NCBI RefSeq assembly: GCF_004087835.1
Contig: NZ_CP035119.1
Span: 2,790,001 to 2,854,000 of the forward strand
DNA length: 64,000 nt
Source: Halorussus pelagicus
Lineage (GTDB): Archaea; Halobacteriota; Halobacteria; Halobacteriales; Haladaptataceae
Direction of reading: 5' to 3'
The number at the start of each line of letters is the position of its first letter. Within the stretch, counting starts at the first letter, position 1. Positions 13,221 through 17,822 of this stretch are shown one piece after another. The notes under the pieces are model-generated. The model was not told the origin of the DNA. It made no database searches and saw only the letters and a list, made by a program, of their open reading frames with translations. The position numbers and the translations under genes were made by a program.

Positions 13221-13444
13221 TTGCTGTCCGCGCGGACCGTGAGAAGGCTACACTACCGCACTCTAGTGCGAGAGGTTAACAGTTCTAAACTTGGTACGAG
13301 ACGTATAAATTTCTTTCCCTCCGAGTAGTATCCTCGATACTGTGGCTTTTCGCGGAAGTATTCGGAGAAATAGACAGGAATGTGTATAATCCGGCGCGAA
13401 AGACCGTAATCGGTTTACGGAGTGGGAGAGAACCAATCCGCGTA

Positions 13445-14809
13445 ATGACCGTAACCATCGTCGGTTCGCAACTCGGCGACGAGGGGAAAGGCGGCGTCGT
13501 GGACCTCTGGGGCGACGCCGTCGACGTGGTTGCCCGCTATCAGGGCGGGGACAACGCGGGACACACCGTCGTCGAGGATGGCACTGAGTACAAGCTTTCG
13601 CTGGTTCCGAGCGGAGCGGTTCGCGGGAAGGTCGGCATCCTCGGCAACGGGTGCGTCGTCAACCCTGCGACGCTGTTCGAGGAGCTAGACGACCTGCGCG
13701 AGCGCGGTCTCGACCCGGACGTTCGGGTTGCCCGGCGCGCGCACGTCATCTTCCCGTACCACCGCGTGCTTGACGGCATCGAGGAAGATGTCAAAAGCGA
13801 GTCCGACCAAGAGGTCGGCACGACCGGCCGCGGCATCGGTCCGACCTACGAGGACAAGATGGGTCGGCGCGGCATCCGGGTCGCCGACCTACTGGACGCC
13901 GACGGTCTCCGCGAGAAACTGGAGTACGTCGTCCCGCAGAAACAGCGACTCGCCGAGGACGTGTTCGGCGTCGAAACGGGCGAGGAGTTCGACATCGCCA
14001 GCCTCTACGAGGAGTACAAGAGCTACGGCGAGCGACTCGCCGACGAGAACATGCTCGTAGACGCGGGGAACTACCTCGCCGACCGCATCGACGACGGCGA
14101 CGAAGTGATGTTCGAGGGTGCCCAAGGCACCATCATCGACATCGACCACGGAAACTACCCCTACGTCACCTCCTCGAACCCAACGGCTGGCGGGGCCGCG
14201 ACGGGGACCGGCCTGAGTCCGGGCGTCGTCGGCGGTGGGGAAATCGTCGGTATCGTGAAGGCCTATCTCACGCGCGTCGGGAGCGGGCCGCTCCCGACCG
14301 AACTCGGCGGCGTCGTCGGCGACACCCCCGGCTACGACGAGCAGGGCGAGGGCGAAAACGAGGAACTGGCCACCTACATCCGCGAGGAGGGCGGCGAGTA
14401 CGGCACTGTCACGGGTCGCCCGCGCCGGGTCGCTTGGCTCGACGTGCCGATGCTCCGCCACTCCGCGCGCGCCAACGGCTTCACCGGTCTCGCGGTCAAC
14501 CACATCGACGTACTGGCCGGACTGGACGAGGTGAAGGTCGGCCACAGCTACGACCTCGACGGCGAGGAAATCACCACGATTCCGGCGACGACCGAGCGGT
14601 GGGGTCGCTGTGAACCCAACTTCCGGACGTTCGAGGGCTGGGAGGACGCCGACTGGCAGGCGGTCGCCGAGGAGGGGTACGACGCGATTCCGGAGAACGC
14701 GCAGGCGTACCTCGACTACCTCAGCGACGAACTCGACGCCGACATCTACGCGGTGGGCATCGGGCCGGGCCGCGAGGAGACCGTCGTCGTCGAGAATCCG
14801 TTAGAGTAG
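13445..14809 (+). CDS. purA: adenylosuccinate synthetase
   Basis: PurA makes adenylosuccinate from IMP, aspartate and GTP, the first step from IMP to AMP. The 454-residue sequence has the P-loop-like GSQLGDEGKGG at its N-terminus with the catalytic Asp, DNAGHTVV, GRGIGPTYEDK and VTGRPRRVAWLD. It is slightly longer than bacterial PurA, with an acidic insertion near residue 300 (GDTPGYDEQGEGENEEL) typical of haloarchaea. I use the ATG at 13445; an upstream GTG at 13382 adds a non-conserved basic leader. A TATA-like tataaat at about 13304 implies a long 5' leader. Confidence 0.95.
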   Translation: MTVTIVGSQLGDEGKGGVVDLWGDAVDVVARYQGGDNAGHTVVEDGTEYKLSLVPSGAVRGKVGILGNGCVVNPATLFEELDDLRERGLDPDVRVARRAHVIFPYHRVLDGIEEDVKSESDQEVGTTGRGIGPTYEDKMGRRGIRVADLLDADGLREKLEYVVPQKQRLAEDVFGVETGEEFDIASLYEEYKSYGERLADENMLVDAGNYLADRIDDGDEVMFEGAQGTIIDIDHGNYPYVTSSNPTAGGAATGTGLSPGVVGGGEIVGIVKAYLTRVGSGPLPTELGGVVGDTPGYDEQGEGENEELATYIREEGGEYGTVTGRPRRVAWLDVPMLRHSARANGFTGLAVNHIDVLAGLDEVKVGHSYDLDGEEITTIPATTERWGRCEPNFRTFEGWEDADWQAVAEEGYDAIPENAQAYLDYLSDELDADIYAVGIGPGREETVVVENPLE

Positions 14810-14996: not shown

Positions 14997-15242
14997 ATGC
15001 AGAAAGCCGAACTCGTCTATCTCCACGCGCTGCTCGCAAAGATTCACGAATACCTCGCGGTTCGTCACGACGTGCCGGAGACGTTTGAGCGCTACGAGAC
15101 CGACGACATCGGCCCGTATCAGGTCCAGTTTCAGAAAGACGCACACGAGGCGGCGGTCCGACTGCTCGGCGAATTCCTCGCCGATGAACTGTCCGGCGAC
15201 GACGAGAACGAGTCGCTGGAAGTTGAACTTCGGGAGACCTGA
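14997..15242 (+). CDS. UPF0058 family protein
   Basis: This 81-residue helical protein begins MQKAELVYLHALLAKIHEYL, the same N-terminal helix pattern as the protein at 9637, and ends in an acidic tail. The two are paralogues. No function is established for the family. It is a separate gene 187 bases downstream of purA, converging on the short ORF at 15354. Confidence 0.82.
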   Translation: MQKAELVYLHALLAKIHEYLAVRHDVPETFERYETDDIGPYQVQFQKDAHEAAVRLLGEFLADELSGDDENESLEVELRET

Positions 15243-15353
15243 ACTGCACGAGTCGTGGTAGTCGGTCGTCCCGCCTCGTTGCTAGGGAGTGGACTCCAAT
15301 CGCACGAAATCGGGGGTCCTCCAGAAAAAGGTAGTCGTCGGATGAATCGCTGT

Positions 15354-15404
15354 TCAGCAACCGAGGTAGTCACACCAGATCATCGGAGTGAAGTCAATCA
15401 TCAT
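15354..15404 (-). CDS. 16-residue candidate small protein
   Basis: The minus strand encodes MMIDFTPMIWCDYLGC followed by TGA. A near-perfect Shine-Dalgarno sequence (aggaggtga, 15408-15416) lies six bases before the first ATG, unusual in a genome where many transcripts look leaderless. An AT-rich promoter-like stretch (TATA-like tttaatatt near 15437-15446) precedes it, and a five-T tract (15325-15329) follows. The peptide has Trp, Tyr and two Cys five residues apart. I know no family for it. It could also be a chance ORF or a leader peptide, but no gene follows on that strand. Confidence 0.55.
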   Translation of the reverse strand: MMIDFTPMIWCDYLGC

Positions 15405-15407
15405 TTG

Positions 15408-15416
15408 TCACCTCCT
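15408..15416 (-). promoter_or_regulatory. Shine-Dalgarno site of the 16-residue ORF
   Basis: Aggaggtga on the minus strand matches the anti-Shine-Dalgarno end of archaeal 16S rRNA. The AGGAGG core is six bases from the ATG, which decides the start of the tiny ORF. Confidence 0.65.
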
Positions 15417-15564
15417 ATGTGATAGAGTAACGTTCACAATATTAAAAGTTATCAAATAAGTTTGTATATATTATTACTATACGGGTTGAAACACAATCAG
15501 CGTGTCCTCGGTCGCGTTCGGCGAACCCGTCACGCTTTTGCCCTCCCCACGCACAGACAGTATC

Positions 15565-15759
15565 ATGAAGCAGTCGCTGATGGACATCATCTGTTGTCCG
15601 CTAGACAAGCAGGAACTCGAACTCGACGCTACCGACACCGACGACGACGAGGAAGTCATCTCGGGCACGCTGACCTGCACCGAGTGCGGCGAGACCTACC
15701 CCGTCGAGGACGGCATCCCGAACCTCTTGCCGCCGGACATGCGCGACATCGAGGCGTAG
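15565..15759 (+). CDS. Trm112-like methyltransferase activator
   Basis: This 64-residue protein carries two zinc-type Cys pairs: ICCPLDKQ near the N-terminus and CTECGETYPVEDGIPNLLP near the end. This is the Trm112 domain, which activates several RNA- and protein-modifying methyltransferases in archaea. The ATG at 15565 is used because the upstream extension is not conserved-looking. An AT-rich tatatatt lies about 90 bases upstream. Confidence 0.85.
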   Translation: MKQSLMDIICCPLDKQELELDATDTDDDEEVISGTLTCTECGETYPVEDGIPNLLPPDMRDIEA

Positions 15760-16527: not shown

Positions 16528-16806
16528 TTAAATACCTAATTTAATCATAATATAGGAGGATGCCAATGGTATAATTCCTACAAATAGAATTGTTAATAAC
16601 ACAGTAATGAATTCGGGCGCTTTGATTACAGAGTTTAAAAGCGTAATTATCCCCCAAACTCCAGTACCGACCAACAATACGACAATCGGATACCCAATTA
16701 TCGGACGACGAAACCCTTTGTCAAGTTCGCTCCGAACATCGGAAAGTGCGTCACGCATGTATGGTTTATCGTATATCCAGTCTATGTGAATTTCGATTTT
16801 ATTCAC
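16528..16806 (-). CDS. two-helix membrane protein (possible immunity partner)
   Basis: This 92-residue protein has a charged N-terminus (MNKIEIHIDWIYDKPYM) and two hydrophobic helices (about residues 38-60 and 67-90). Codons are much more AT-rich than neighbours. It lies 32 bases downstream of the Tat-exported protein gene on the same strand, so the two probably form one transcript. I recognise no family. A small membrane protein after an exported protein with a membrane-active-looking segment is a layout seen for immunity proteins, but that is inference. Confidence 0.7.
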   Translation of the reverse strand: MNKIEIHIDWIYDKPYMRDALSDVRSELDKGFRRPIIGYPIVVLLVGTGVWGIITLLNSVIKAPEFITVLLTILFVGIIPLASSYIMIKLGI

Positions 16807-16838
16807 TTTTCAAAATTACAAAATTAAGGCGAGTGGAT

Positions 16839-17822
16839 TTACGACGAGACTCTCACGGTCTCGCGGTAACCGTCATTCACTTGGACCCCGTTTTCAAGAT
16901 GGACTGCAGGTACATCAGGCGTGCCGTTGATAGTGAGTAGGTCGGTATCCTCATCCATCCAAACTCCACTGACGAGGAGCCTTGTACTCGGTGCACATTC
17001 CTCGAAGGCACACTTGTCAATATCACGAATTACCTGAGTGATGTTCGTCGTGTCTTTGAGGTATTTGATAGCGAATCCGACAATCGCTCCGGCAATTGTA
17101 CCAATAGCCCCTCCATAGGGACCACCGATTAGTAGACCCAGCGCGGCCCCAAGGACCGTAGTGAGCACCGTTTCGGTGAAGTCTCCCAGCACTTTCTCGT
17201 ACTCAACCGAGAAACCGAGCTGGTGGTGTGGTTGGCTGTTTACTGCAGCATCACAGTCTGTCCCTTTCGGACTTTCGATATAATACGCCCCTATCCTGTC
17301 GATCGAATCCTTGGTACCTGCAGAGATTTCCTCTAGAACATCTTCAAGGATGCTCTTAGCCTGAATTGTCACTCCGTCTGACTGGTTGCTTTTTGAGCTA
17401 GCAGCGTTTCGCAGCGGACCCCAAACAGGACTCTGTTCGGCAGTCGAAGAATCGGAGTTCACTGCCGTGCTGGAACTATTCACCTCTGCACTAAAGACTG
17501 ATTCACGGATGTCAGCAAGGACGTCTTCAGATATCTCGTGTACGTCAAGATCGTTGGCATCTAACTGTGCGATTTCGTTTGTCGACCCATCACTGGTCGG
17601 TACAGGAATGACTGCACCATCGATTTCACCGGTCTTCAAGTTCTGGGCAATGCAAGCAGAGTATTTTATTCCGCTTTCAACAACGGTGTCCACTTTCACG
17701 TCTAAGTTGCTCGCTTTCGTAGTTTTCTTGGCGGATGTCAGCCCGGAGAGTCCAGTTAGTCCCACAGTGGTACCACTCGCACGCATAAACTTCCTCCGGC
17801 TTATTTTACTCAACATGCACAT
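16839..17822 (-). CDS. Tat-exported protein with glycine-rich hydrophobic segment
   Basis: This 327-residue protein has a twin-arginine signal (SRRKFMRASGTTVGL, residues 8-22) and would be exported folded. After a mature N-terminal region and a Ser/Asn-rich linker (~112-150) comes a Gly/Ala-rich hydrophobic stretch at residues ~219-255 with repeated GxxxG-like spacing (LGAALGLLIGG, AIGTIAGAIVG). Cysteines are at 57, 190, 271 and 276. Codon use is AT-rich, suggesting transfer. Halocin precursors are Tat-exported and release a hydrophobic C-terminal peptide; the resemblance is architectural only. It could instead be an ordinary surface protein. The second ATG (residue 3) is an alternative start. 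Confidence 0.75.
   Translation of the reverse strand: MCMLSKISRRKFMRASGTTVGLTGLSGLTSAKKTTKASNLDVKVDTVVESGIKYSACIAQNLKTGEIDGAVIPVPTSDGSTNEIAQLDANDLDVHEISEDVLADIRESVFSAEVNSSSTAVNSDSSTAEQSPVWGPLRNAASSKSNQSDGVTIQAKSILEDVLEEISAGTKDSIDRIGAYYIESPKGTDCDAAVNSQPHHQLGFSVEYEKVLGDFTETVLTTVLGAALGLLIGGPYGGAIGTIAGAIVGFAIKYLKDTTNITQVIRDIDKCAFEECAPSTRLLVSGVWMDEDTDLLTINGTPDVPAVHLENGVQVNDGYRETVRVSS

Follow-up and report, generated by a model that had tools for sequence, protein, structure and literature searches.

The 64,000-nucleotide stretch of Halorussus pelagicus DNA analysed here (the window; contig NZ_CP035119.1, positions 2,790,001 to 2,854,000) contains on its minus strand a solitary open reading frame (ORF) of 16 codons behind a near-perfect Shine-Dalgarno site. 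We conclude that this ORF is almost certainly a real coding gene, presumably translated, of a so far undescribed family, which sets aside both an RNA and a random reading frame. The earlier note on this DNA had described the ORF and its flanking signals; its paralogues in this genome and the wider family of Cys-bearing micropeptides, both reported below, go beyond that observation.

Paralogues in the same genome

The H. pelagicus genome (G000) was scanned for GGAGGTGA-N2-9-ATG with no condition set on the ORF. The whole genome contained 43 unique sites, at 15 of which the ORF was open and stopped within ~22 codons. Eleven of these 15 short ORFs encoded peptides of 16-23 residues with two to four Cys and the remaining four contained no Cys, whereas none of the 28 longer ORFs had two or more Cys within the first ~20 residues (2 Cys in 612 residues overall). 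At a Cys content of 1%, a 20-residue ORF is expected to contain at least two Cys with a probability of 0.017, and 11 of 15 would be reached by chance with a probability of ~1e-16. The claim that a complete unit of this size is improbable by chance was thus borne out. One more member, a neighbour with a GTG start, emerged when the fetched flanks were scanned under relaxed conditions, which brought the members in G000 to 12; the full-length unit studied here is present once. Two members of this genome, L050:3991 and L050:4198, are 200 bases apart on the same strand. The second of this pair is GTG-started and lacks an AT-rich promoter, and it may be a second cistron.

Members in the taxonomic family and the wider class

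A first search over 28 genomes of the taxonomic family, by blastn with the 91-base unit and by pattern, detected one clear homologue, in a genome of another genus (G006), as well as other tiny ORFs recognised by their Shine-Dalgarno site and start. Scanning the 28 genomes for the GGAGGTGA motif with ATG-WTB, followed by relaxed scans of fetched flanks, yielded 45 members in 11 genomes, mostly of Halorussus (12 in G000, 11 in G024, five in G026, four in G018, three each in G014 and G025, two each in G021 and G022, and one each in G006, G015 and G017). The number 45 is a lower bound because second codons such as CTG or ACG escape the ATG-WTB pattern; two members of this sort were recovered later. 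One of the three G025 members was tabulated from the record of a metagenome-assembled genome (MAG; L128), its peptide being identical to that of G025 locus L080.

All 45 members contain at least two Cys. The 43 tabulated members have 16-24 residues and a net charge of -4 to +2, with two Cys in 36, three in 2 and four in 5. Residue 2, counted after the doubled Met, is most often F (28 members) or I (11 members). The spacing from the first to the last Cys varies from 2 to 14, and the sequence around the Cys is not kept. The GGAGGTGA motif was exact in 40 of the 43, a count to be read with the caveat that most members had been found through that motif.

For the wider class, two patterns were scanned over 391 genomes, 10 from the same taxonomic family and 381 from other families. 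A Shine-Dalgarno site with MFG[FI] occurred in six genomes, and the two outside the family resemble ordinary genes. A Shine-Dalgarno site with Cys-stop occurred in 54 genomes; the seven places within the family are in-frame members (three in G000 and four others), none of the 19 translated stop-ended matches from other families was in frame, and the remaining matches end in TGG, not a stop. As far as the motif defines it, the micropeptide family was seen only in Halorussus and G006, and in none of the 381 genomes of other families.

Searches of Pfam, NCBIfam and PHROGs with the 24 members of at least 20 residues, for which the 16-residue peptide itself was too short, gave no convincing match: the best E values were 0.086 in Pfam (zinc knuckle) and 0.039 in PHROGs, for one member each, and NCBIfam gave none. 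The pattern IWCDYLGC, the tail of the peptide, matched no place in the genome contig collection, and its single match in viral contigs was inside unrelated sequence. Two further scans of the viral contigs for other members and tblastn of one member against plasmids gave no match. Among the papers listed from the openly accessible literature, no title or abstract opening described such peptides.

Coding constraint

Twelve homologous pairs, drawn from matching places or similar sequence, were aligned as DNA with the frame ignored. Mismatches amounted to 53 of 211, 48 of 210 and 75 of 211 at codon positions 1, 2 and 3, respectively (p 0.008). When 13 pairs, including one tandem pair within a single genome, were aligned under guidance of the protein sequence, the pooled pN/pS was 0.43, and the Cys codons in the 43 tabulated members were mixed (TGC 54, TGT 44). 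A point against coding is that five of the eight gaps in the DNA alignments were not multiples of three, although gaps are unreliable in such short diverged pairs.

The earlier note had raised the alternative that the unit is a regulatory RNA and its Shine-Dalgarno site a coincidence. A short stand-alone transcript with its own promoter, as predicted here, would suit such an RNA, and Rfam gave a C/D-box match, to sR58, which stayed below the threshold (19.4 bits versus 55). The excess of third-position mismatches and the retention of Cys through both of its codons argue against it, and the ten members that were folded showed no fold signal (z from -1.92 to +1.49), so that a regulatory RNA is very improbable. 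Even less credence is given to the leader peptide of an attenuator or an upstream ORF. Such elements are also short ORFs with a strong ribosome site, but the next gene downstream is convergent, an orientation that contradicts this reading for the given copy, and the flanking genes differ among members.

The unit and its promoter

The unit and its neighbours are as follows (window positions).

15354..15404, minus strand: ORF MMIDFTPMIWCDYLGC, 16 codons and a TGA stop, ATG ATG start; homologue in G006
15408..15416, minus strand: Shine-Dalgarno site AGGAGGTGA, AGGAGG core six bases 5' of the first ATG
15438..15452, minus strand: BRE/TATA-like element with the TTTTAATATT box at 15447-15438, recognised from sequence and from column conservation across 43 members
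15325..15329, minus strand: T tract 3' of the ORF, possible terminator by its sequence
14997..15242, plus strand: UPF0058 family protein gene, convergent (Pfam PF01893)
15565..15759, plus strand: archaeal Trm112 methyltransferase partner gene, divergent (PF03966, NF038101)
13382..14809, plus strand: gene that we take to be a purA-like adenylosuccinate synthetase gene, syntenic anchor

The ORF and the AGGAGG core at six bases were found as the earlier note had placed them. The unit stands alone between the UPF0058 and Trm112 genes, ~545 bases from the end of the purA-like gene, and a DUF7524 gene is also among its neighbours. The promoter-like AT-rich region proposed upstream was confirmed: the region 5' of the ORF is ~80% AT and contains the TTTTAATATT box. 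The T tract and the convergent gene, on which a terminator had been proposed, are present; no obvious hairpin precedes the T tract, so that terminator function is no more than plausible.

When the 43 members were aligned on the Shine-Dalgarno site, one further conserved block appeared, A-rich at -35 to -31 and T/A-rich at -30 to -26, as would be expected of a transcription factor B recognition element (BRE) and a TATA box. Since the centre of the BRE/TATA-like element is ~28 nt 5' of the Shine-Dalgarno site of the given ORF, the usual distance from TATA box to start would place the transcript start about at the Shine-Dalgarno site and leave a leader of ~12 nt. In Haloferax volcanii, the Shine-Dalgarno site of a leader was dispensable for translation (PMC3986360). 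A perfect site alone is thus no proof of translation, and its near-invariance in the family is a puzzle.

Separately, two proteins are encoded in an AT-rich island at 16528-17822 on the minus strand, which lies 1.1 kb away from the ORF. One, of 327 residues, has a glycine zipper and a weak twin-arginine signal; the other, of 92 residues, is membrane-like and without a family. They could represent a secreted antagonist together with the protein that confers immunity to it.

The locus in relatives and recurrent places

In each of the 28 genomes the given place was located by means of the Trm112 gene and inspected, with orientation taken into account. The IWCDYLGC tail was present there in G000 and in G006, whose peptide is MMFGFGLQIWCDYLGC and where purA/Trm112 synteny is kept; within the tail, the two differ only by synonymous or stop-to-stop changes. 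The suggestion of a conserved peptide with Trp, Tyr and paired Cys was therefore upheld by the search in other haloarchaeal genomes that the earlier note had proposed, the paired Cys being the mark of the family. A diverged MFTIGLFDYCGLPGCGP behind GGAGGTAAG occupies the place in G025 and in the MAG SW_6_65_15, whereas 25 of the 28 genomes have no member there. In one of these, G014, a decayed copy is recognisable by eye, with Shine-Dalgarno site, start and stop lost. Drift with frameshifts in relatives, proposed as a sign against the gene, thus applies to one relative only, in which the whole unit has decayed, and most relatives lack the unit; its distribution is patchy, but where present it is conserved. 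This pattern of present, diverged, decayed and absent copies would suit a gene of long standing that some lineages have retained and others have lost.

An all-against-all comparison of neighbouring ORFs revealed that ~10 chromosomal places recur between species with their flanking genes kept. The peptide at a recurring place is either recognisable (MFGLIPLHYCDADNRC versus MFTIIPLHYCDADPRC) or wholly different. At a hot spot 3' of a gene that is presumably methylmalonyl-CoA-mutase-like, several species have between one and three members, while other species have none there. The occurrence of differing peptides at the same places is consistent with fast-evolving signals or antagonists. Among shared neighbour genes, none recurred as a possible partner at unrelated sites except generic ABC ATPases and a handful of weak matches.

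Co-occurrence with lanthipeptide synthetases

Halorussus is the archaeal genus richest in genes for the lanthipeptide synthetase LanM, with 26 of 67 (PMC12144867). Matches to PF13575 were found in 13 of the 28 genomes, comprising 10 of the 11 with the micropeptide family and 3 of the 17 without it (p 0.0003). When only full-length class II LanM (1039-1189 residues) was counted, the numbers were 10 of 11 versus 2 of 17 (p 0.00005), and within Halorussus 9 of 10 versus 1 of 8 (p 0.003). The copy numbers of the family and of full-length LanM were correlated (Spearman 0.76), while the correlation with genome size was opposite in direction (-0.52). As controls, Cas1 showed no link (5 of 11 versus 5 of 17, p 0.44), and YcaO, present in 28 of 28 genomes, offered no contrast. 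On a tree of 27 genomes built from one gene, the family changed at least seven times and LanM eight times.

Several observations weaken this link. The restriction to full-length LanM was decided after the data had been seen, the count before being 10 of 11 versus 3 of 17. In a tree-aware test with pairs taken on supported branches, four of five independent pairs agreed and none disagreed, with a median p of 0.125. Cas1 was the sole informative control family. Furthermore, no member was seen in G011 or G002 although both possess full-length LanM, and G025, which is 62% complete, has members and no LanM. The co-occurrence is accordingly a strong lead, not a demonstrated link, and is no more than suggestive after correction for phylogeny.

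One LanM type occurs in three genomes (G017, G018 and G024), and in each of them a ..GCGYHYG.. member is located 7-10 kb from LanM. Transfer of the two as one cassette was considered and rejected: the intervening genes look like ordinary conserved chromosome, which leaves physical nearness only. LanM-like proteins of 634 and 655 residues (G013:C1:220880, L204; G026:C6:146339, L217) form a clade apart from the full-length proteins. The LanA core ..GCGFTCSPFSSW, from precursor candidates at L199, L206 and L214, resembles by eye the micropeptide MISIRPFGCGAFACDPRPW (L056:4220). The window itself contains a full Cas1 gene (G000:C1:2834713, window ~44713), and a fragment of Cas1, interrupted by a single in-frame TGA, is found on a small contig (G000:C4:32512).

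Proposed function and its alternatives

We propose that the genes form a multi-copy family of leaderless, presumably translated peptides of 16-24 residues. They begin with hydrophobic residues (M followed by F or I, in many cases with a further F or I and P-F/P-L) and have, close to the C terminus, a loop bounded by two Cys, which would close the ring, most likely by a disulfide. Each gene stands alone with its own TATA box, and its transcript should begin about at the perfect Shine-Dalgarno site. The peptides may act as signals or antagonists between or within cells, in the same competition as lanthipeptides; this agrees best with the number of copies, their turnover, the constancy of their places and the link to LanM. 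Taken as a whole, a coding micro-gene family of leaderless Cys-ring peptides in competition or signalling is the best explanation, at about even chances. The functional part by itself, that such peptides serve competition or signalling, falls somewhat short of even. It speaks against this function that no export signal, receptor or processing enzyme was found beside the given gene. More speculative, and rather doubtful, is that these are the first archaeal leaderless two-Cys micropeptide signals or antagonists, ~12 per genome, each with its own promoter and a perfect Shine-Dalgarno site in a group believed not to use that mechanism, diversifying at fixed places and gained and lost with LanM. 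Coupled to LanM in this manner, they might, for example, contribute to lanthipeptide production as signals, as immunity peptides or as accessory peptides.

It is unlikely that the members are leaderless precursors of ribosomally synthesized and post-translationally modified peptides (RiPPs), substrates of an enzyme encoded elsewhere (LanM or another) that joins Cys to other residues. The co-occurrence with full-length LanM, the Cys loop close to the C terminus and the nearness of a member to one LanM type in three of three genomes would agree with this. Archaeal class II LanA (PMC12144867, PMC10105419) likewise occurs in Halorussus and Haladaptatus, with a short Cys-containing core and several variants per genome. 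A leader, Ser/Thr partners and a gene beside LanM characterise LanA, whereas family members as a rule have none of these; the LanA candidates in LanM clusters are mostly ~40-66 residues long, with a leader and no Shine-Dalgarno site. The given ORF was rejected as a LanA itself: it has 16 residues in total and no leader, its nearest LanM is ~105 kb away (G000:C1:2910384 versus 2805354), and it has one Thr. Ten of the 43 members, including the G006 homologue, have neither Ser nor Thr, so that no lanthionine is possible in them. An intracellular metal or thiol micropeptide, whose Cys pair would hold zinc, iron or copper either in the monomer or in a dimer, is similarly improbable. The Cys are invariant, a few members have four, and haloarchaea are rich in small zinc-binding Cys proteins; the C(P)XCG zinc-finger u-proteins of Haloferax volcanii are also very small Cys proteins (PMC11241148). 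The Cys spacing of 2 to 14 in unconserved surroundings fits such binding poorly, the given peptide has two Cys only (..WCDYLGC) and lacks C(P)XCG pairs, and the zinc knuckle, the best Pfam match among the 24 members, concerned one member.

The proposed signals or antagonists can also be compared with leaderless communication peptides (LCPs), which are not known to have a Cys pair, are shorter than the family peptides and have their receptor encoded next to the LCP gene. LCPs of Firmicutes share with the family a tiny ORF, a product without export leader and distinct peptide codes per species, and use a RopB-type receptor (PMC10518010). No Rgg/RopB-type receptor is adjacent to the given ORF, whose neighbours are the purA-like, UPF0058, Trm112 and DUF7524 genes.

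Genes this short are probably missed by annotation, and the whole peptide repertoire of a culturable archaeal genus may therefore go unseen. To our knowledge, peptide communication in archaea is nearly a blank. Haloarchaeal lanthipeptides, those of Halorussus included, were recently shown to inhibit other haloarchaea and to alter motility (PMC12144867). The members provide a natural set of leaders for testing the use of Shine-Dalgarno sites in haloarchaea, contrary to the Haloferax result (PMC3986360), and the family offers dozens of peptides ready for synthesis and testing.
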